A DNA stretch of 23,686 nucleotides from a virus: the IMG/VR virus record IMGVR_UViG_3300046534_000593, positions 1 through 23,686 of that record; one strand, given 5' to 3'. This document shows positions 7,196-15,717 of this stretch, in pieces (position 1 is the first letter of the stretch; every line of letters begins with the position of its first letter). Under the pieces are notes generated by a model. That model saw nothing but the letters and a program-made list of their open reading frames with translations. It ran no database searches and was not told where the DNA came from. The position numbers and the translations under genes were made by a program.

Positions 7196-7474
7196 ATGAC
7201 GAAAGAAGAATTTCTTGCCGCACTTCCAAGCATGATTGAGCCGCTGGTGTGGGACGGGTTTCGCAGCGGACCCTATAAAATCTACGTTTATGATCAGGGG
7301 GCTGATCTTTGGTTTTGCACCAAGGCATTTAATTGCGAGGCAGGTTACAAGCGACTGCTTGGGGCATACGTGACGCGGGTTAGCATTGATGACCTCAAGC
7401 AAGAAGCCAACACCCACCACATTGCCGCGATCACAGCGGCGTTCCAAACGCCGTTCACCCCAACTCTTGACTAA
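7196..7474 (+). CDS. Accessory protein, paralogue of the gene at 5843
   Basis: A 92-residue protein preceded by the leader ACAACAAAGGGGAAAGAT, shared with other small genes in the window. It keeps both blocks of its longer paralogue: residues 5-19 (FLAALPSMIEPLVWD) and the ANTHH block near 71, followed by AAITAAFQTP. The middle is shorter and divergent, with several aromatic residues and two Cys. Its 3' end overlaps the -35 box of the candidate late promoter. Function is unknown. Confidence 0.7.
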   Translation: MTKEEFLAALPSMIEPLVWDGFRSGPYKIYVYDQGADLWFCTKAFNCEAGYKRLLGAYVTRVSIDDLKQEANTHHIAAITAAFQTPFTPTLD

Positions 7475-7494
7475 CGCGCAAAAACTGCTATTTA
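7467..7494 (+). promoter_or_regulatory. Candidate late promoter (copy A)
   Basis: TTGACT (7467-7472), a 16-nt spacer containing GCGCAAAAA, then TATTTA (7489-7494). A very similar element lies at 14674-14702 (TTGCAC, GCGCAAAAA, TATTTC), and similarity continues about 19 nt past the -10 box, ending in AATTG. Two independent copies, each before structural genes, support a real shared promoter. Transcription would begin near 7501. Confidence 0.55.
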
Positions 7495-7509
7495 TGAGTG
7501 CGAGGAATT

Positions 7510-7539
7510 GCGTTTAGTCGAAAGGCTGGGCGCTTTTTT
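7510..7539 (+). terminator. Intrinsic terminator just downstream of late promoter A
   Basis: The left arm 7510-7519 (GCGTTTAGTC) pairs with 7524-7533 (GGCTGGGCGC) over 10 bp, including four G-U pairs, around a GAAA tetraloop, and six T follow (7534-7539). Only about 10 nt separate it from the predicted transcription start, so it would release a very short RNA unless transcription is antiterminated. Confidence 0.65.
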
Positions 7540-7581
7540 GTTGGGCGGGATGCTCACACCACATGAAAAGGCGGGAAGCCT

Positions 7582-7614
7582 ATGCGATCTATACATTCAA
7601 GTTTTTCAAAATGA
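7582..7614 (+). CDS. Ten-codon leader ORF coupled to small terminase gene
   Basis: ATG at 7582 follows GCGGGAAGCCT and encodes MRSIHSSFSK. Its TGA (7612-7614) overlaps the ATG (7611) of the terminase small subunit as ATGA. The terminase ATG has no ribosome site of its own (preceded by TTTTTCAAA), so translation of this mini-ORF probably delivers ribosomes to it. It could be chance, but the exact overlap is telling. Confidence 0.4.
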   Translation: MRSIHSSFSK

Positions 7615-7913
7615 CTTTGCACGGCGGTAAGAGAACAGGCGCAGGCAGAAAGCCCGGGGCAACATCACTTGCCAAGCGTGATCTGGCGTCTATGGCCAAG
7701 GAGCACGTTGACCTAGCCTTGTCCGTATTGGCGGAAATTGCAGCAGCAGGGCAAAGCGAACCTGCGAGGGTATCAGCGGCCAACGCGCTCCTAGATCGAG
7801 CATACGGCAAGCCAATCCAAGGCACTGTGCAGATCCCAGCGGAGAAAGCGCCGCAAATGTTCGAGGGGTGGGATATTGAGCGAGCGGAATCTGATACGCC
7901 TGACGCTGACTGA
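7611..7913 (+). CDS. terS: Terminase small subunit
   Basis: Recognises phage DNA for packaging and regulates the large subunit. In 100 residues the N-terminal basic GGKRTGAGRKPG (5-16) is typical of one family of small terminases, followed by helices (SLAKRDLASMAKEHVDLALSVLAEIAA and RVSAANALLDRAYGKP) that form the oligomerising core. I chose ATG 7611 rather than ATG 7563 because GGKRTGAGRKPG normally lies at the extreme N-terminus, and because of the ATGA overlap with the leader ORF. The upstream start would add 16 residues and overlap the leader in another frame. The gene overlaps the large subunit by 38 nt. Confidence 0.85.
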   Translation: MTLHGGKRTGAGRKPGATSLAKRDLASMAKEHVDLALSVLAEIAAAGQSEPARVSAANALLDRAYGKPIQGTVQIPAEKAPQMFEGWDIERAESDTPDAD

Positions 7914-9135
7914 GCCGCAAGAACGGTTTCTAATGTCTAAAGCAAAGCATCCGGCGTTCGTTGCTGGTTTCGGCGCGGGCAAGTCCGAGATAATGGCCTG
8001 CTCTGCGCTTGGAGACGCGGCCCACAGCGCCACGGCATTGATCGGGCTGTACGCGCCAACCTACGACCTTGTGCGGCTTATCACGGCCCCGCGCATTTGC
8101 GCCAAACTTGAGGAACAGGGCATTCCGCACAGGTGGAATAAGTCCGATAATGTGATCTATACATCATGGCCGCGCTTCGGTGATTTTTTACTACGCACCA
8201 TGGACAACCCTGAGCGCATTGTAGGATATGAGACCTACCGCTCGCATGTTGACGAGCTTGACACGCTCAAGACTGAGGCTGCGCGCAAGGCATGGAATCA
8301 GATCATTGCACGCAACCGGCAGCGACCTGAAGGCATCAAGCGGCCATTCAATCGCGTTTCAGCATATACGACGCCCGAGGGTTTTGGATTCGTCTATGAG
8401 CGCTGGGCAAAGAACAAAACAGAAGGCTATGAGTTTTTCCAAGCCCCGACGTATAGCAACCCATTTCTGCCTGATGATTATGTTGACAACCTGCGGGCTA
8501 GTTATCCGGCGCAGTTAATTGATGCCTATATTGAAGGGCAGTTCGTTAACCTCACATCGGGCACGGTCTACAATTCATTTAACCGAGAGACCAATCGCAG
8601 CCCCGAAACCCTGCAACCAGGTGAGCCGATCCGGCTCGGCATGGACTTCAACGTAGGGAATATGGCCGCATGTGCGTTTGTGCTGCGTGAGAACGACTGG
8701 CACTGTGTTGATGAGATTAAGGGCGGCATTGATACACCTTCGATGATCACGACCATGGCAGAGCGATACGAAGGCCACAGCGTTATTATTTACCCTGACG
8801 CAAGCGGCAACAATAAGAGCAGCAAGGGCGCGTCATTGTCTGACATCTCACTGCTGAGGAATGCAGGCTACACGATACGAACCAAGCCAAGCAACCCGCG
8901 CGTGAAAGACAGGGTGCAGGCGGTCAATATGGGCTTCCAGCGGGGGCGTGTGTTCGTCAACCCTGACACCTGCCCCGAGACAGCGCGGTGCCTTGAGCAG
9001 CAAGCTTATAACAAGCAGGGCGAGCCGGACAAGACAACCGGACTTGACCACCAGAATGACGCATTCGGTTATCCTATCGCGTATGAAATGCCGATCAGAA
9101 ACACCGCGAAGGTGCAAGAGCGAATCCGGTTTTAA
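7876..9135 (+). CDS. terL: Terminase large subunit
   Basis: The packaging motor ATPase and nuclease that pumps DNA into the prohead and cuts it. The 419 residues show Walker A GFGAGKS (31-37), a Walker B-like HVDELD (Asp126-Glu127), and RNase H-like nuclease acidic residues in MDFNVG (Asp257), YPDASG (Asp308) and DHQNDAF (391-395). It begins with TTG, with GAGGGG about 7 nt upstream, inside the small-subunit gene; an ATG at 7933 would remove the conserved LTEPQERFL stretch. Its length fits the compact terminases found with DUF4055 portals. Confidence 0.95.
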   Translation: MSERNLIRLTLTEPQERFLMSKAKHPAFVAGFGAGKSEIMACSALGDAAHSATALIGLYAPTYDLVRLITAPRICAKLEEQGIPHRWNKSDNVIYTSWPRFGDFLLRTMDNPERIVGYETYRSHVDELDTLKTEAARKAWNQIIARNRQRPEGIKRPFNRVSAYTTPEGFGFVYERWAKNKTEGYEFFQAPTYSNPFLPDDYVDNLRASYPAQLIDAYIEGQFVNLTSGTVYNSFNRETNRSPETLQPGEPIRLGMDFNVGNMAACAFVLRENDWHCVDEIKGGIDTPSMITTMAERYEGHSVIIYPDASGNNKSSKGASLSDISLLRNAGYTIRTKPSNPRVKDRVQAVNMGFQRGRVFVNPDTCPETARCLEQQAYNKQGEPDKTTGLDHQNDAFGYPIAYEMPIRNTAKVQERIRF

Positions 9136-9144
9136 GGAAATACC

Positions 9145-10575
9145 ATGTCAAAAACAGTCAATAAACGATCTGCGGTTATGGCTGCAATTGTCCAATCCTC
9201 GGAAAAGGGCCGCGCTCTTATGGGCGGCACCGAAGCAATGCGAAAGGCTGGGCAGAAGTACCTGCCTAAGTTTGGCGCGGAAGACGATCAAGACTACAAG
9301 GCTCGGCTGGCGTCGTCTTGGCTGTTCAACGGGATGCGCAAAACCGTTAAAGACATGACCGGGCGCGTATTCACAAAACCCATTGAGATAGCAGAAGGCC
9401 CTGACCGCCTTAAAGAATTCGCCGAAGACATCAACATGCAGGGCCAAGACCTGAGCGCGTTTGCATCTGACATATTCAAGGACGCCTTTGTGCCGGGCAT
9501 TTCTTACATTATGGTGGATGCCCCGCGACGTGAGGGCGAGACCACACGCGAGCAGGCTGCAACGCTTGGCCTGCGTCCTTACATGGCGCACCTGAAGGTT
9601 GAGGATGTGCTAGGGTTCAAAACTGAGACGTACGGCAACGTCCTAGCGCTGTCTATGCTGCGGATCATGGAGTCAGTCAAAGAAACAGACCCAGCCGATG
9701 AATTTACGCAAATCAGCGTGGATCAGGTCCGAGTGCTTACGCGCGAGGGCGGCACAGTATCGGTGCGCATCTACCGTGAGAACGACAAAAACGACTGGCT
9801 TGTGTTTGACGAATACCTGACCAATGCCGAGGAAATCACGGTTATCCCGTTTTATGCCCAGCGCACGGGTTTCTTCACCGCTGAACCTGTGCTTGAAGAC
9901 CTTGCGGACGTGAACATTGCGCATTGGCAGTCACAATCTGACCAGCGCAATATTCTGCATGTTGCCCGCGTGCCGATCTTGTTTGCATCTGGCAGGCGAC
10001 CTGATGAGCCGATTGTGATCAGTGCCTCGAACGCGGTTACTTCAGAAGATCCGGCCTCAAAGCTGGTATGGGTTGAGCACACCGGCGCGGCTATTGGCGC
10101 GGGGCGTACTGACCTCAAAGACCTGGAATATCAGATGCAGGCGCTTGGCCTTCAGTTGCTTGTAGCGAGCAATGAGACCGCAACCGGTGCTGTGCTGGAC
10201 TCTGCCAAGGAAACATCAACCCTGTCAATGATGGCCGACAACCTGAAGGACGCACTTGAACAGGCGCTTAAATGGATGGCGTTTTATGACGGGTTGCCAG
10301 AGCAGGACATCACAATCGTCGTCAACAAAGACTTCGGCATTATGCCACTGACCGCGCAAGAAGTGCAGGTCATGCAACAGGACGTTGCGCTCGGCCTGTT
10401 GTCAAAAGAGGCATATTATGAGGAACGCAAACGGCGCGGATTCTTGCGGCCTGATCTTGACACTCAAGGCGACATGGACGCAATCTCACAGCAGCCGCCT
10501 GACCTGACTGGTGAGGCGTTGGACCTGAGCGGCACGAGCGGTGTTGATAGCGCATTGGCGGCTTTGAATGGATAG
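9145..10575 (+). CDS. Portal protein, DUF4055 type
   Basis: Forms the dodecameric channel at one capsid vertex that binds terminase and the neck. The 476-residue sequence has features I know from DUF4055 portals: an N-terminal YKARLASSWLFNGMRKTV region, FVPGISYIMVD near 115-125, DVNIAHWQSQSDQRNILH near 255, and a Gln-rich helix with ETATGAVLDSAKE near 355. TAAGGAAA precedes the ATG. It follows the large terminase by 9 nt and overlaps the collagen-like gene by 8 nt at its end, in one late transcript. Confidence 0.9.
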   Translation: MSKTVNKRSAVMAAIVQSSEKGRALMGGTEAMRKAGQKYLPKFGAEDDQDYKARLASSWLFNGMRKTVKDMTGRVFTKPIEIAEGPDRLKEFAEDINMQGQDLSAFASDIFKDAFVPGISYIMVDAPRREGETTREQAATLGLRPYMAHLKVEDVLGFKTETYGNVLALSMLRIMESVKETDPADEFTQISVDQVRVLTREGGTVSVRIYRENDKNDWLVFDEYLTNAEEITVIPFYAQRTGFFTAEPVLEDLADVNIAHWQSQSDQRNILHVARVPILFASGRRPDEPIVISASNAVTSEDPASKLVWVEHTGAAIGAGRTDLKDLEYQMQALGLQLLVASNETATGAVLDSAKETSTLSMMADNLKDALEQALKWMAFYDGLPEQDITIVVNKDFGIMPLTAQEVQVMQQDVALGLLSKEAYYEERKRRGFLRPDLDTQGDMDAISQQPPDLTGEALDLSGTSGVDSALAALNG

Positions 10576-11383
10576 GGATCTAGGAGAGTTTGTCGGCAAG
10601 GGTTTTGCTGTGCTGCGTGATCGTCTGAAGGCCGTTGAGTCACGTAAGGCGATCAACGGCATTGACGGGCAAGACGGCAAGGACGGAAGTGCAGGGCCGC
10701 AAGGTTCGGCAGGCCCGCAAGGTGACGTAGGGCCTGAAGGTAAGACAGGCACGCAAGGCGATGTTGGCCCAAAGGGCGATCAAGGTAACAGCGTAAAAGG
10801 AGATAAAGGCGATGAAGGCGAATCCATACGGGGCGAAAAAGGGGACCAAGGGAACCAAGGCCAAGCCGGTGAAGCGGGGCAAGTAGGGCCAAAGGGCGCA
10901 AGGGGTGAACCTGGCGCGAAAGGCAACGACGGGCGAACAGTAACAGGCCCACAAGGTGACAACGGAGAGGGTGTCCAGGCGGCGTCAATCAACGAACGCG
11001 GGCACCTGATCATCACGCTTGACGATGGCCGCAAGATCGACGCAGGCAGGGTCAAGGGCCGAGACGGGCAGTCATATCAAGGCATGATCGCAGGCGGACC
11101 AAGCACGCCCAGACCGTCGGGCATTGCAACTCTGGACTTTGGCGCGTCGGCTAAGACATCAACCGTTGTGGTCACTGGTGTTGATGCGATCACCGCGACC
11201 TCGGTTGTGCTGGTCAAAATGCGCATTGAAGACACCGACGATCACACTGCCGAGGATCTGTTGATTGACCCAATACGAGTTGAGGCGTTTGCAATTGTGG
11301 CGGGCGTTGGCTTTACGATATACGGCGCGATGGAAAACGCGCCTGCAAATGGAAAATATAACGTCCAGTGGGCGCTAGGTTAG
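10568..11383 (+). CDS. Collagen-like fibre protein
   Basis: A 271-residue structural protein. Residues 31-135 are Gly-X-Y repeats (about 30 triplets) interrupted three times by five-residue units: GNSVK (73-77), GESIR (84-88) and GRTVT (122-126). Such repeats form a collagen-like trimeric rod, common in phage fibres. The N-terminal helix (FVGKGFAVLRDRLKAVESR) may be the attachment or trimer-starting part. Residues about 185-271 (TLDFGAS onwards, ending YNVQWALG) look like a beta-sandwich tip found at the end of phage fibres. Because it lies between portal and head genes, a head or neck fibre is as likely as a tail fibre. Confidence 0.85.
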   Translation: MDRDLGEFVGKGFAVLRDRLKAVESRKAINGIDGQDGKDGSAGPQGSAGPQGDVGPEGKTGTQGDVGPKGDQGNSVKGDKGDEGESIRGEKGDQGNQGQAGEAGQVGPKGARGEPGAKGNDGRTVTGPQGDNGEGVQAASINERGHLIITLDDGRKIDAGRVKGRDGQSYQGMIAGGPSTPRPSGIATLDFGASAKTSTVVVTGVDAITATSVVLVKMRIEDTDDHTAEDLLIDPIRVEAFAIVAGVGFTIYGAMENAPANGKYNVQWALG

Positions 11384-11391
11384 GAAATCAA

Positions 11392-12273
11392 ATGGCAGTC
11401 GAAATTAAATCAGGCGCAGGCACGGACCTTGCAACAGTTGAGCCAAACTCAAAGTCAATAAGGGTTACAAACTTTAGCACCGGTGGCATTGAGGGTTTTC
11501 AATCTCTGCCGATTACTGTGCCGATCACTGATGTTTCGGCACTAAATGACGACCTAATCGCGGCTTTGGACGTGTCGCAGTACAAGTTTATCAGCCTTCA
11601 GCTTGTCGGCACTTGGGCGGCTACTGTGTCGTTTCAGGGGTCAAACGACGGCGGCACATTCTACCCTATTGTGACATCCAACCCAAGCGGGGGGCAGGCA
11701 ATTGGCGAATCGTCAACGACTGAAAATCGGCTTGTAAAGGTTCCGACGATCTACAAATTTGTGCGCATTAGGGTGACGGCTTACACCTCGGGCATTGTTG
11801 AGGGCGTGGCGTTTGGCCATCGTGATGAAAACTCGTCGGGTCTTATTGCTGCGATTGGGCCTGTGACGCTAAACCCTGAGACAACCAAGAAAATCGGCAA
11901 CGTGGGCATCGCGCAAAGCGGCAGCACCGTGACCTACCAGAAATTCATCTCTGACACGACGACGAACGCGACCGCAGTGTCAAGCGTGCCTGCAAATATC
12001 TCAATCCTGCACATGGAAAACAGCGGTGACGGCGTGCGCTACGTTAAGTTCTACAACAAGGCCAGCGCGCCCGTGGTTGGAACTGACGTACCGCTGATCA
12101 CAATTGGTATTCCGGCAGTGTCAAGCTCAAGTTTTACGCTGCCTGCGCTGGTCGGCATTGACTTTTCCATAGGTATTTCCTTCGCTATCACCTTGGGCGC
12201 GGCTGACAGTGACACCACCCCGCTCAGTGTTGCGGCCAACGTCACCGGGCTTATTGCTTACTCCGCGTTGTGA
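11392..12273 (+). CDS. Beta-rich virion structural protein
   Basis: A 293-residue protein. I start it at the ATG at 11392 (MAVEIKSG), preceded by AGGAAATCAA, rather than an in-frame upstream ATG. Residues about 60-145 contain the pattern LVGTWAATVSFQGSNDGGTFYP followed by YKFVRIRVTAYTSGIVEG, which I know from beta-sandwich domains of phage fibre and head-decoration proteins. The C-terminal third (from ISILHMENSGDG through KFYNKASAP) resembles another such domain. It follows the collagen-like gene directly, so the two may form one appendage. No enzyme motif is seen. Confidence 0.7.
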   Translation: MAVEIKSGAGTDLATVEPNSKSIRVTNFSTGGIEGFQSLPITVPITDVSALNDDLIAALDVSQYKFISLQLVGTWAATVSFQGSNDGGTFYPIVTSNPSGGQAIGESSTTENRLVKVPTIYKFVRIRVTAYTSGIVEGVAFGHRDENSSGLIAAIGPVTLNPETTKKIGNVGIAQSGSTVTYQKFISDTTTNATAVSSVPANISILHMENSGDGVRYVKFYNKASAPVVGTDVPLITIGIPAVSSSSFTLPALVGIDFSIGISFAITLGAADSDTTPLSVAANVTGLIAYSAL

Positions 12274-12330
12274 TGGCTTGATTTAGGCAGGCAAGCGGCG
12301 TAAGGTTAGGGGGCAACAAAGGGGAATGAG

Positions 12331-12651
12331 ATGACTGACATGCCGCCAAAAATATGGGCAAAACAAGAAGACGATAGCAATTTTGCGCAAACTGGCATTT
12401 GGTCAACAGATCGATGCCAGTATTACGATGATTTGGAATTTTGTTACGTGCGCTTGATTGTGGCTCAATCAAAAAAAGCTGATATTGAAAGCCGTGCAGG
12501 TTTGCGCATTGAAGCACTGACCGAGGCATTGCAAAGCATTCACGACGTGCCATTTGACAAGCCTGCCAACTTCCACGCCTCAGATGAGGACTGGCTAAAA
12601 CGCAGGGCGCAAATGATGCAGAACGCGGCAAGAATTGCGTTGAACCCATGA
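12331..12651 (+). CDS. Hypothetical accessory protein, moron-like
   Basis: A 106-residue protein I do not recognise. The leader GCAACAAAGGGGAATGAG before its ATG matches those of several other small genes. It is visibly AT-richer than the flanking structural genes. Its N-terminal half is polar and aromatic (WSTDRCQYYDDLEFCYVR), and the rest is helical with a SIHDVPFDKPANFHASDEDW segment. Its stop overlaps the head morphogenesis gene by ATGA, so that gene may depend on it for translation. Position and composition suggest an inserted accessory gene. Confidence 0.65.
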   Translation: MTDMPPKIWAKQEDDSNFAQTGIWSTDRCQYYDDLEFCYVRLIVAQSKKADIESRAGLRIEALTEALQSIHDVPFDKPANFHASDEDWLKRRAQMMQNAARIALNP

Positions 12652-13730
12652 CCAGCGCCAACGATAAAATCCTTGACATCATGACGACCCGCGCGCTTGA
12701 CCTGCAAAGGCTGGCGGCGGGTCAGGCGCGCGATGTGGGCAGGTTTCTTGACGAGCTTCAAGGCGACATTGTCGCCCAACTTGCGCGCATTGATCCGACG
12801 GGCATTGACGGTATTTCAAGGCGTCAGGCGCGGCTAGAGAAGCTCTTAAAGCAGGTCAGGGGTACGATCACGGCGTCTTACCGGGCCGAGGGTGTGCGGC
12901 TTGCTAACGAATTGCGCGAAATTGCAGACATTGAAGCCCGGTTCGCTGTGTCTGCAATCAATCGGGGCGCGGGTGTTCAGCTTATTACAACAGAGCTAAC
13001 ACGCGGGCAGCTTGTGGCGATTACGGGTGACCTGTTAGTGCAGGGCGCGCCGGTGTCTGACTGGATCTCACGGCAGGGCGGCGACACGCTCAAAAGGTTC
13101 CAAGACAACATGCGGCTTGGAATTGCTCAGGGGGAAACCAACGGGCAGTTAATCCGACGGATCCGAGGCGGCAAGCAGAACGGTGAAGTCGTTGAGGGCT
13201 TCATGAAGATCACGCGGGCGCACGCTGACACGTTGGTGAGGTCGGCCACGCAGGCGGTGTCACAAGCGTCAAGGCAGGCGGTCTACAACGACAACGACGA
13301 GCTCATAAAGGGCGAGCAGTGGGTCAGCACGATTGACCTCCGCACTACCATTCTATGCTCGGCGCGTGATGGCCTGCTCTATACCGTTGGAACACATGAG
13401 CCGATTGACCACAGCCTGCCGTGGTTCGGTGGACCTGGCAATCTGCACTTTGGTTGCCGGTCAACGTCAACGCCTGTACTGAAGACATTCCGCGAGCTTG
13501 GGTTTGACATTGACGAAATACCGGAATCCACACGCGCAAGCCTTGACGGGCAGATACCACAGGACACGTCGTTTGAAGGCTGGCTATCTCGGCGGACTGT
13601 TGCAGAGCAGAATGAAAACCTAGGCGTTGGGCGTGCTAAGTTGTGGCGCGACGGCGATATATCTTTTAGGGATCTGATGGACGCAAACGGGCGCGAATTG
13701 ACGTTGCAGGAGTTGCGCGCGCGGGTGTAG
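12648..13730 (+). CDS. Mu F-like minor head morphogenesis protein
   Basis: A minor capsid component that in SPP1 gp7/Mu gpF relatives binds the portal and may be injected with DNA. The 360-residue protein has a helical N-terminal half (1-200) and the family core at about 205-285: a helix ending ASRQAVYNDND, WVSTIDLRTTILCSARDG (Cys237), then PWFGGPGNLHFGCRST (Cys270). The paired cysteines and the final HFGCR in place of the common HPNCR are typical. It starts by ATGA overlap with the 106-residue accessory gene. Confidence in the family is high; its exact role here is inferred. Confidence 0.88.
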   Translation: MTSANDKILDIMTTRALDLQRLAAGQARDVGRFLDELQGDIVAQLARIDPTGIDGISRRQARLEKLLKQVRGTITASYRAEGVRLANELREIADIEARFAVSAINRGAGVQLITTELTRGQLVAITGDLLVQGAPVSDWISRQGGDTLKRFQDNMRLGIAQGETNGQLIRRIRGGKQNGEVVEGFMKITRAHADTLVRSATQAVSQASRQAVYNDNDELIKGEQWVSTIDLRTTILCSARDGLLYTVGTHEPIDHSLPWFGGPGNLHFGCRSTSTPVLKTFRELGFDIDEIPESTRASLDGQIPQDTSFEGWLSRRTVAEQNENLGVGRAKLWRDGDISFRDLMDANGRELTLQELRARV

Positions 13731-13759
13731 GGTTGAGGCGAACCAAAGGGGAATAAATT

Positions 13760-14191
13760 ATGAAATGGTATGTGCCGCTAAGACGACCAGTTGACCCATC
13801 GCAAAGCAACGCCATGCGCCAATACAGCATCGAAGAAATGTTTAAAGAAGGACGTCGCTTTGATGCTAAGACGAAAAGCCAGTTTGTTTCTGAACTTCAA
13901 GAAATCCATGACTTTGAGATAAACGATACAAATAGGTTCAAATGGTTCAAAGTTGTGCTTCAGGTCGCAATTGATGGCGTTCCTCAAGGCGAGCTTTTGG
14001 GAATGACACCAACAGGTGCGGAGGGAGTGGTGAAAGTCGCATTCTTGTACAATGAGTACACTGATATGACCGGGCGTGACTTTAACATATTTATTCCTGA
14101 TGATGATAAGTTGGCTGGGGATTGTAAAACCTTACACAAAGATAGGGTTTCCGTTTGGATGCCAAAAGACGAACTGACTACGGCCACCTAA
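13760..14191 (+). CDS. Hypothetical accessory protein, moron-like
   Basis: A 143-residue protein with no family I recognise. The leader AACCAAAGGGGAATAAATT precedes the ATG. It is AT-richer than the head genes. An N-terminal segment with SIEEMFKEGRRFDAKTKSQF is helical; the rest looks beta-rich (FKWFKVVLQVAID, VVKVAFLYNEYTD, FNIFIPDDD, VSVWMPKDE). The ending resembles small domains that bind other proteins, but this is only an impression. The gene's last bases belong to a 20-bp sequence repeated at the end of the next gene. Confidence 0.65.
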   Translation: MKWYVPLRRPVDPSQSNAMRQYSIEEMFKEGRRFDAKTKSQFVSELQEIHDFEINDTNRFKWFKVVLQVAIDGVPQGELLGMTPTGAEGVVKVAFLYNEYTDMTGRDFNIFIPDDDKLAGDCKTLHKDRVSVWMPKDELTTAT

Positions 14192-14206
14192 CACCAAGCC
14201 CCTTGC
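14187..14206 (+). repeat. 20-bp direct repeat, copy 1
   Basis: CCTAACACCAAGCCCCTTGC spans the stop codon of the 143-residue gene and is identical to positions 14658-14677, 471 bp further on. The repeats bracket the 135-residue accessory gene and its leader. Confidence 0.9.
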
Positions 14207-14257
14207 TAAGGTTAGGCGGCGGCGCTAGGGTGTGGTTATCAACAAAGGGGAATGGCT

Positions 14258-14662
14258 ATGGTTCAACAATACGTAAAAGCAGTGGATATAGATGGGGTAA
14301 CTTATGACTTTACTGAGTGGTCATGGGGTGACATTGGCATGGACCAACTTGCCAAAATAAACGAATGCACTGCCGAACTGGTCGCTTCGGAAATATTTAA
14401 ATCGTTGGTTTTGAACATTGAAATATCAGGGGATCTTATGGGCCAGCCTGTTGTTAGCACTGACGCCGTTGATGATGCTTTCTTTTCTTTTGACATTGCT
14501 GCGGCTGTGGCTGGGGCAGTTCATGAAATTGAGACCAACTATCATCCCAACTTTATAGAACAGCACAAGGAAGAAACACGCCAGCACATGCTGCTTTTTA
14601 GGGCAAAGTTTGCTGCGCTGGTTGACATCATTGACGCATCGCCCACCTTGAAAGCCCCCTAA
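14258..14662 (+). CDS. Hypothetical acidic accessory protein, moron-like
   Basis: A 134-residue acidic protein. Of two close ATGs (14252 and 14258) I chose the second, because the ribosome site AAAGGGGA of the leader CAACAAAGGGGAATGGCT then has normal spacing, as in the sister cassettes. It has a beta start (QQYVKAVDIDGVTYDFTEW) followed by helices and a C-terminal helix (EETRQHMLLFRAKFAALVDIID). No known family is evident to me. The gene is AT-richer than the capsid genes and is bracketed by exact 20-bp repeats, suggesting acquisition or exchange as a cassette. Confidence 0.68.
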   Translation: MVQQYVKAVDIDGVTYDFTEWSWGDIGMDQLAKINECTAELVASEIFKSLVLNIEISGDLMGQPVVSTDAVDDAFFSFDIAAAVAGAVHEIETNYHPNFIEQHKEETRQHMLLFRAKFAALVDIIDASPTLKAP

Positions 14663-14677
14663 CACCAAGCCCCTTGC
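14658..14677 (+). repeat. 20-bp direct repeat, copy 2
   Basis: Identical to 14187-14206 and again spanning a stop codon (TAA at 14660-14662). Its last four bases (TTGC) form the start of the -35 box of promoter B. Confidence 0.9.
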
Positions 14678-14702
14678 ACTCGGCGCAAAAAGCGTGTATT
14701 TC
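14674..14702 (+). promoter_or_regulatory. Candidate late promoter (copy B)
   Basis: TTGCAC (14674-14679), 17 nt including GCGCAAAAA, then TATTTC (14697-14702). It aligns with promoter A at 7467-7494, and similarity extends downstream to a shared AATTG. It would transcribe the DUF1660-like microgene and, past two terminators, the scaffold and coat genes. Confidence 0.5.
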
Positions 14703-14740
14703 TGTGCTTGAATAATTGTGACTTGCGGGAGGGCAAGAAA

Positions 14741-14866
14741 ATGATGAAGTTTATTTGCGCTATATTTGGGCACAAGCTCATTTACGACATGACCATTGCA
14801 AGCGATCCGGCGTTTGGGAAAATTGACAGGCACGTATGCCGCTGCGGCAAAGTTACAATAACCTAA
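14741..14866 (+). CDS. DUF1660-like microprotein
   Basis: A 41-residue protein below usual gene-calling limits, with a strong ribosome site (GGGAGGG, 8 nt before the ATG). It has the layout of small DUF1660-type prophage proteins: an N-terminal KFICAIFGHKL and a C-terminal VCRCGK, where Cys6, His11, Cys33 and Cys35 could hold zinc. The function of this family is unknown. It lies between promoter B and two terminators, so it would be made even when transcription stops before the coat genes. The start could equally be the second ATG (14744). Confidence 0.7.
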   Translation: MMKFICAIFGHKLIYDMTIASDPAFGKIDRHVCRCGKVTIT

Positions 14867-14888
14867 CACACGAACCAAGATAACCTGC

Positions 14889-14925
14889 CCCGCCTCTCAA
14901 CGATGCGCCTCTGGGCGGGTTTTTT
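14889..14925 (+). terminator. Intrinsic terminator before scaffold gene (first of two)
   Basis: CCCGCC (14889-14894) pairs with GGCGGG (14914-14919) across a 19-nt loop and is followed by six T (14920-14925). It lies 22 nt after the microgene's stop. Confidence 0.6.
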
Positions 14926-14945
14926 ATTACCAAAAATCAAACCAC

Positions 14946-14969
14946 GGCCCTGCATCTGCGGGGCCTTTT
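14946..14969 (+). terminator. Second terminator-like hairpin before scaffold gene
   Basis: GGCCC (14946-14950) pairs with GGGCC (14961-14965), possibly extended by inner GC pairs in the 10-nt loop, followed by TTTT. Weaker than the preceding terminator. The downstream GGCGGGATGC and CGGGAAGC match the leader downstream of terminator A. Confidence 0.5.
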
Positions 14970-15012
14970 GCGCTGGCGGGATGCCTGCGCCTTAACAGCG
15001 GGAAGCTGACCT

Positions 15013-15717
15013 ATGAAAATCGAAGTAACCGACGCCACCACATTGCCCACATGGCTTCAAGGCCACGTGTCTGAAGGCCACCTTGATCTAGGCGCACTTG
15101 CTGCACCAGAGGACGTGAGCGGGCTTAAAACAGCCCTCTCCAAAGAGCGCGGCAATGCTGCGGCTTATAGCAAATACGGCACGCCTGACGAGATTGAGGC
15201 GCGCATTGCTGACCTGACAGACAAAGCCAAGGGCAGCGGCAAAGGCAGCGAAGACGCACAGGCCAAGCTTGACGCAATGAAGGCTGACTACGAGGGCAAG
15301 CTGACCGGCGCAAACGACCGCATGACAAAAATGGTGCAGCGTGGCGCGGCGTCCGACCTCAAGGCAGAACTGGCAAAAGCTGGATTCATTGCGGAATCCA
15401 TTGACGACATCGCATCAAGCGCGATGGGTCGTCTCAAATTTACAGACGACGGCACCGCTCAGGTCATGACATCTGACGGAAAGCCAATGATTGGCAGCGG
15501 TGCCGATCACGGAGCGACCCTAGCCGATCTGGCGAAGGAACTTGCAGCATCCAAATCCTACGCGGTTCGGGATGCTGGCAAGGGCGGCGGCGGGAAGCCT
15601 GCCGGATCAGCGGGCGGGACGCCTGACAAACCCACAGTCACTTGGTCGCAATTCGAGGCAATGTCTCAATCCGACCGAATGACATTTTCAAAATCAGGCG
15701 GCGCAGTCAAAAACTAG
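15013..15717 (+). CDS. Capsid scaffold protein
   Basis: Guides coat assembly and leaves or is lost before maturation. The 234-residue protein is helical and charged, with predicted coiled-coil character around residues 40-125 (starting ALSKERGNAAAYSKYG, through EARIADLTDKAK and AKLDAMKADYEGKL), then a flexible Gly/Ala region (GKGGGGKPAGSAGGTPDKP, about 188-206) and a short helical tail that would bind the coat. Position immediately upstream of the coat gene is the strongest evidence. GCGGGAAGC precedes the ATG. No maturation protease gene is seen nearby, consistent with a P22-like capsid. Confidence 0.8.
   Translation: MKIEVTDATTLPTWLQGHVSEGHLDLGALAAPEDVSGLKTALSKERGNAAAYSKYGTPDEIEARIADLTDKAKGSGKGSEDAQAKLDAMKADYEGKLTGANDRMTKMVQRGAASDLKAELAKAGFIAESIDDIASSAMGRLKFTDDGTAQVMTSDGKPMIGSGADHGATLADLAKELAASKSYAVRDAGKGGGGKPAGSAGGTPDKPTVTWSQFEAMSQSDRMTFSKSGGAVKN

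Follow-up and report, generated by a model that had tools for sequence, protein, structure and literature searches.

The window analysed here is the whole 23,686-nt stretch of virus record IMGVR_UViG_3300046534_000593, which comes from a marine phage. It contains two leader regions, copy A (7467-7579) and copy B (14674-15006), located in front of head genes; all window features given below lie on the + strand. Leader A precedes the genes for the terminase small subunit (terS, phrog_15261), terminase large subunit (terL) and portal, and leader B those for the scaffold (phrog_206) and a P22-type coat protein (phrog_283). The initial annotation described the two copies as one duplicated promoter-leader module, and the elements named there are indeed common to both copies, in the same order and at the places described. 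However, promoter, terminator and hairpins occur independently of one another across relatives, and the shared order is that of three separable modules: tandem hairpins, a promoter-like element and an abiF-like terminator. They are considered separable because the hairpins are near-universal, while a strict search finds an intrinsic terminator near them in 27/76 leaders and the promoter motif is present in 10/78; two relatives (L004 and L005) have the hairpins and one terminator without a promoter of this type. The leaders are of interest mainly for a new hairpin element and for the orphan abiF-like RNA.

The boxes GGCGGGATGC and CGGGAAGC are not DNA operator words: each comprises the loop and some stem bases of one of two tandem RNA hairpins, which have covarying stems and lie just 5' of the gene start. 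Their loops are C-GGGA(A/T)-G pentaloops, in which the letters GGGA are conserved. In element A, hairpin 1 (UGGGC-GGGAU-GCUCA, 7542-7556) is followed by hairpin 2 (AGGC-GGGAA-GCCU, 7569-7581), which stands immediately 5' of an ATG; the pair scores 44.0 bits with the covariance model described below. In element B (45.3 bits), hairpin 1, recognized from the sequence and from relatives, has one U-U mismatch (GCGCUGGC-GGGAU-GCCUGCGC, 14970-14990), and the loop of hairpin 2 (CAGC-GGGAA-GCUG, 14996-15008) lies at -13 from the scaffold ATG. Taken singly, the boxes are weak evidence: GGCGGGATGC, with one mismatch allowed, has five matches in the window against 2.85 expected, CGGGAAGC has three against 1.12, and the words AATTG and TTG occur at chance level. 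Unlike the single boxes, the pairing of the hairpins is far beyond chance in relatives, which were retrieved by coat-protein or scaffold similarity. Stems of hairpin 1 change jointly (GTTGGC/GCCAAC, GTTCGC/GCGAAC, GCTGAC/GTCGGC), as do those of hairpin 2 (CAGC/GCTG, TGAC/GTCA, TAGC/GCTA, TCGC/GCGA, AGGC/GCCT). The covariation score of an alignment of 53 distinct pairs (A2) is 0.561, compared with 0.183 after shuffling and at most 0.149 with slid partners, and two-sided changes fill 124 cells against 43.9; since membership in A2 required some pairing, the innermost three pairs are partly owed to selection, and the unbiased test is provided by scaffold leaders found by protein. Among 65 scaffold loci collected by protein similarity and not by motif, with 42 distinct upstream regions, both hairpins are present in 38 of the 42, one hairpin in three and none in one, where the start is probably misplaced. 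Loop 2 begins 10-18 nt before the scaffold ATG, mostly 13-14 nt. Judged from these sequences, the tandem hairpins are most likely a site at which a phage protein controls translation.

The hairpin pair was turned into a covariance model (R1), which had 105 matches in 63 loci covering 1 Mb of phage DNA, all of them upstream of terS, of an inserted methylase gene or of the scaffold gene, or within the scaffold gene. About 24 contigs have the hairpins in both leaders and about 22 coat-protein relatives have them in neither, as one trans-acting factor would predict. A search of the window against Rfam 15, up to an E-value of 1, returned the abiF match alone and nothing at the tandem hairpins. In 198 genomes of Rhodobacteraceae, the host family, scanned with stricter filters that may lose weak sites, the R1 matches were confined to the prophage sites of Loktanella sp. 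3ANDIMAR09 and of Brevirhabdus pacifica; the element is therefore one of phages, and a host regulon was rejected. The hairpins are followed by terS genes of several unrelated families, and the scaffold genes behind them are phrog_206 wherever classified, except in L139, which gave no match. This scaffold subfamily is present in 21/21 hairpin-positive and 0/15 hairpin-negative contigs. Moreover, the tandem motif occurs a third time, as coding sequence (GGCGGGAAGCC...GGCGGGACGCC, 15589-15623), in the C-terminal linker of the scaffold (GGGGKPxGSxGGxP), about 115 nt upstream of the coat gene, and weak R1 matches occur there in relatives. Both critical glycine codons of the linker are GGG and the lysine codon is AAG in 35/35 distinct genes, whereas GGC is used in 61/70 neighbouring glycine codons and GGG never in the C-terminal GG pair; the constraint thus acts on nucleotides, although the sequences are related and the count is not a probability. 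In some relatives, a ParB/DNA-methylase gene with its own hairpin pair is inserted before terS (L003, 937-2405; L117, 2122-3450; L210, 2500-2539).

The first terminator of copy B is an abiF-like RNA, a hairpin followed by a T-run (14884-14925), which was not part of the initial annotation. Its 15-nt loop, GCCTCTCAACGATGC, is letter-perfect against the consensus of the abiF RNA family RF03085, and both the conserved loop and the inner stem of the family are present in the alignments. The match scores 27.0 bits (E = 0.5 against all Rfam, 1.2e-4 for the single family in the window record); as this is below the curated gathering cut-off of 37 bits, the RNA is called abiF-like and is not filed as a member of RF03085, and taken alone the match is suggestive only. 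Homologs occupy comparable places in the lineage. One with 38.7 bits, above the cut-off, lies directly between tRNA-Met and the terS hairpins in L089, and one with 32.4 bits holds the same place in L187, its outer stem being changed on both strands relative to L089. Further matches are found before the methylase hairpins of L210 and L213 (27.8 bits) and before the scaffold of L003, L007, L008 and L107 (about 21 bits); in L003, L007 and L008 the loop has drifted (TCATTGAAGC). PF07751 (Abi_2) is absent from the record of the window (G000) and from all eight records of the hairpin lineage that have an abiF match.

Orphan RNAs of this kind are spread widely over viral contigs. A scan of viral contigs with CGCCTMTCAACGATGCGC yielded at least 120 stretches; among the matches listed, 109/119 retain an outer stem of 5 bp or more, compared with 15% at random positions. 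PF07751 was found in 0/64 viral records with the RNA (50 contigs among the matches listed, eight hairpin-lineage records and six isolates), whereas Abi_2 adjoins the RNA in 6/8 bacterial genomes, one of the six being a sub-cut-off fragment at a contig edge; as the viral and bacterial sets were sampled in different ways and many of the viral records are incomplete, the contrast is strong but does not amount to a calibrated test. In Rhodobacteraceae, RNAs of the abiF family precede Abi_2 genes (L249 and L251-L253), and the exact loop of the window precedes an Abi_2 gene in L382. One bacterial abiF RNA (L250, 1501-1536, in G058) scores 37.2 bits, just above the cut-off, and no Abi_2 was found in that genome. 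Among isolated phages, RF03085 lies immediately before the capsid assembly (scaffold) gene of Aeromonas phages PZL-Ah8 (50.1 bits) and PT2 (44.4 bits), like in the window, before the terminase genes of Salicola phage CGphi29 (50.1 bits) and, below the cut-off, before the coat gene of Rhizobium phage Pasto (30.3 bits). It is also found in a tRNA cluster of Synechococcus phage S-SZBM1 (55.7 bits) and near a tRNA-Gly gene of Mycobacterium phage Thibault (JN201525; L389, 1501-1537; 54.9 bits), whose record is without Abi_2. Sequences similar to the Thibault RNA were matched by BLAST in more than 30 mycobacteriophages. Caulobacter phage RW, a candidate carrier by BLAST, was rejected for want of an RF03085 match. 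The idea that the abiF RNAs of phages go strictly with late operons was likewise rejected: the downstream open reading frames (ORFs) are diverse, including some HNH and terminase small subunit genes, and distal control ORFs include terminases too. The literature passages searched, with supplements and subscription journals outside their scope, contain no statement of phages carrying an orphan RF03085 decoy.

Each leader begins with a promoter-like element, recognized from sequence and conservation. Element A (7467-7493) consists of TTGACT, GCGCAAAAA in the spacer, and CTATTT, and is conserved before the terS or methylase leaders of L003, L011, L095 and L197; element B (14674-14702) consists of TTGCAC, GCGCAAAAA and TGTATTTC, and is conserved together with the next 25 nt in L003, L007, L106 and L185 and more loosely in L011 and L197. 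The spacing fits a sigma-70 promoter (TTGACT-N16-TATTTA in A, TTGCAC-N17-TATTTC in B), but a consensus scan listed neither. In a generic scan neither copy scored as a promoter and terminator-like sites were not enriched at A or B, so that the promoter and terminator labels rest on conservation. The pattern GCGCAAAAA-N3..8-TATTT has exactly two matches in the window, at 7476 and 14683, with 0.01 expected by shuffling; the spacing of 5-7 nt originally proposed before TATTT fits copy B and misses copy A, where the gap is N4. A relaxed motif (TTG[AC]..GC[GT]..AAA..TATT[TC]) has seven matches in 483 kb strand-bases, all at these two leader positions. A-type (TTGACTNACNGCNNAAAACNTGCTATTT) and B-type (TTGCNCCCNGCGNNAAANTGGTGTATTT) promoters differ, with the spacer box in common, and both types are present in L003, L011, L197 and the window. 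The low frequency of the motif among leaders confines it to close relatives. The phage collection contained no close sequenced relatives. The initial annotation had proposed a dispersed regulon read by one factor, to be abandoned if the motif were absent before homologous genes or scattered at random in coding DNA. No random occurrence in coding DNA was found, but the promoter motif is missing before the homologous genes of distant relatives, and the proposal holds in part, for the hairpins and for the promoters of close relatives. That the two leaders belong together is borne out by the relaxed promoter motif, which is tied to these two positions, and by the tandem hairpins, which about 24 relatives have in both leaders and about 22 in neither.

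Copy A has one terminator and copy B has two T-tailed hairpins, the abiF-like RNA and a second one of 8 bp with an ATCT loop and T4 (14946-14969), recognized from the sequence and found at the same position in L003, L004, L014, L182, L185 and L197. Terminator A (7510-7539; 10-bp stem, GAAA loop, T6, z = -4.65), about 40 nt past the -10 element, resembles terminators in L003, L076, L170, L174 and L191; being a plain stem with a GAAA loop, it was rejected as a second abiF RNA. A tRNA-Met(CAU) gene lies between promoter and hairpins in L095 (7436-7510) and before the terS hairpins in L089 (4730-4804), L134 (1452-1526) and L187 (2357-2431). Remnants resembling tRNA were seen upstream of the terS hairpins in L197.

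The terS gene (7611-7913) was assigned by phrog_15261, its position before terL and its relatives, and the scaffold gene (15013-15717) by phrog_206 (E = 1.5e-14). A short leader ORF of 9-10 codons (MRSIHSSFSK, 7582-7614) ends in a TGA overlapping the terS ATG (ATGA) and is kept in eight contigs as MxxxxSSFS[RK] or MTKQASFSR; the overlap possibly indicates translational coupling. In copy B, the microgene noted earlier between the promoter-like element and the terminators was confirmed (14741-14866; 41 codons, own GGGAGG); it has no Pfam match and is not conserved among the relatives viewed. Tail-fibre/collagen-like and F5/8-type-C-like genes are inserted between the portal and head morphogenesis genes (10568-12273).

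We propose, with a probability of about 0.5, that the leaders are control regions of two head operons, terS-terL-portal and scaffold-coat, standing at the start of each and built from independent RNA modules (promoter-terminator, translational hairpins and abiF-like decoy). The promoter-like element, probably read by a host sigma-70-type polymerase, would produce a short RNA ending at the terminator, and in relatives the promoter-terminator interval holds small-RNA cargo (tRNA-Met, abiF-like RNA). The two tandem C-GGGA(A/U)-G hairpins would let a phage protein control translation from the start codon of terS or scaffold. The first terminator of copy B may mimic the RNA antitoxin of AbiF (Abi_2, a HEPN ribonuclease), bind the AbiF of the host and keep it inactive while head proteins are made. 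The proposal builds on what sequence comparison established, namely the positions of the modules, the covariation, the phage-restricted distribution and the lack of Abi_2 in the phage records tested; promoter activity, a binding protein and binding to AbiF we infer. The leading candidate for the hairpin-binding protein is the scaffold itself because its subfamily follows the hairpins, its own gene contains the coding copy and the scaffold of P22 is autoregulated.

Several points weigh against this proposal. The case for a scaffold repressor is one of co-occurrence in a single lineage, which is weak proof. The abiF score of the window, 27, is below the curated 37, with an unprompted E-value of 0.5, and the window RNA has one abiF motif where RCd22 of C. 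difficile carries two. The abiF-like RNA occurs in only about 10/90 phage records of the group of the window, and any abiF-RNA match in only 5/197 Rhodobacteraceae genomes. Across viral contigs the neighbours of the RNA are diverse, and many of the viral records are fragments. A broader reading, which we hold tentatively and at slightly below even odds, is that phages of many kinds carry an orphan AbiF-antitoxin RNA as a decoy silencing AbiF, in many cases just upstream of scaffold, capsid or terminase genes or amid tRNAs; in the lineage of the window the decoy would be built into the leader terminator, and the hairpins would be a separate, undescribed RNA control element of head genes. AbiF is a Cas13-related ribonuclease, and the defence is related to the origin of CRISPR-Cas13; if the reading is true, the RNA represents a natural and widespread RNA-based escape from AbiF. 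The hairpins, for their part, are a covarying RNA element before head genes with no Rfam counterpart in the search made here, and its association with unrelated terminase genes points to a putative phage RNA-binding regulator.

Other functions of the tandem hairpins were considered. They could be mRNA processing or 5'-stability elements, at which an RNase cuts or is blocked, so that late transcripts are divided ahead of terS, ahead of the scaffold gene and close to the junction of scaffold and coat. A hairpin immediately 5' of a gene is a classic stability element, and the coding copy near the scaffold 3' end is not beside a start codon; however, a generic stabilizer would need neither so narrow a range of distances between loop 2 and the start codon nor the conserved GGGA, which makes this function rather unlikely. 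A cis-acting antitermination RNA of the HK022 put type, which would allow polymerase to read through late terminators, would likewise have two stem-loops in the transcript. Terminators are present in about a third of leaders, and in L004 one precedes the scaffold with no promoter recognized after it. Yet the hairpins lie 3' of the local terminators, although other terminators are found further downstream; they are locked to start codons, and in many contigs they occur without any terminator, so we regard antitermination as improbable. The motif also recalls Csr/Rsm-type sites bound by CsrA, as GGA is placed in short C-G closed loops of two tandem sites, one beside the ribosome binding site. 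The loop has five bases, not six, and CsrA (PF02599) was found in none of three host genomes or 14 phage records, the E. coli control being positive; CsrA was rejected as the binding factor, and this explanation is very improbable.

As to the RNA of copy B, it might be a plain intrinsic terminator resembling abiF by chance, or an inactive remnant, as the T6 that follows the hairpin, the score below the curated cut-off and the loop drift in L003, L007 and L008 suggest. We consider this doubtful: a long, internally bulged loop would be unusual in a terminator, the 15-nt loop is exact, the outer stem shows compensatory changes between L089 and L187, and above-threshold homologs occupy the same place in relatives and isolated phages. 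The mimicry could also run in reverse, AbiF systems having borrowed a phage late RNA, so that AbiF senses phage RNA with the motif. The wide spread of the orphan RNA over at least 120 viral stretches, with several isolates having it near capsid genes or tRNAs, would agree with such an origin. We know of no trigger role of abiF RNA, which counts against it. Moreover, the RNA neutralizes AbiF in C. difficile (PMC12373285), and a borrowed sensor has little probability in our estimation.

The control regions proposed here share features with several known systems. Csr/Rsm sites are likewise tandem GGA hairpins near a ribosome binding site, but CsrA was not found in the hosts and phages tested and the loop of the window is a pentaloop. 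Autoregulation of the P22 scaffold mRNA has in common with the window the P22-type coat protein and control sites at the scaffold gene; in the window, the hairpins also precede terS, and the RNA partner is a candidate only. RCd22 of C. difficile, which contains abiF motifs, binds AbiF directly and thereby neutralizes it, both in cis and in trans (PMC12373285). The window RNA resembles abiF RNAs (RF03085) in the loop GCCUCUCAACGAUGC, three-pair inner stem, GC-rich outer stem, promoter-like element upstream and 3' T-run, but it has no Abi_2 gene, stands before head genes, contains a single motif and scores 27 of 37 bits. An abiF small RNA is listed, without a counter-defence reading in the part of the source consulted, in the genome of cyanophage S-CREM1 (PMC9964418), which thus also has an abiF RNA in a phage genome; its relative S-SZBM1 has the RNA in a tRNA cluster. 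Finally, phage PhiTE escapes ToxIN by RNA mimicry, producing a pseudo-ToxI that imitates a type III antitoxin (PMC3475682). Here, too, a phage RNA looks like the RNA antitoxin of an abortive infection system; the PhiTE escapes, however, are rare mutants facing ToxIN, whereas the abiF-like RNA recurs in natural phages.

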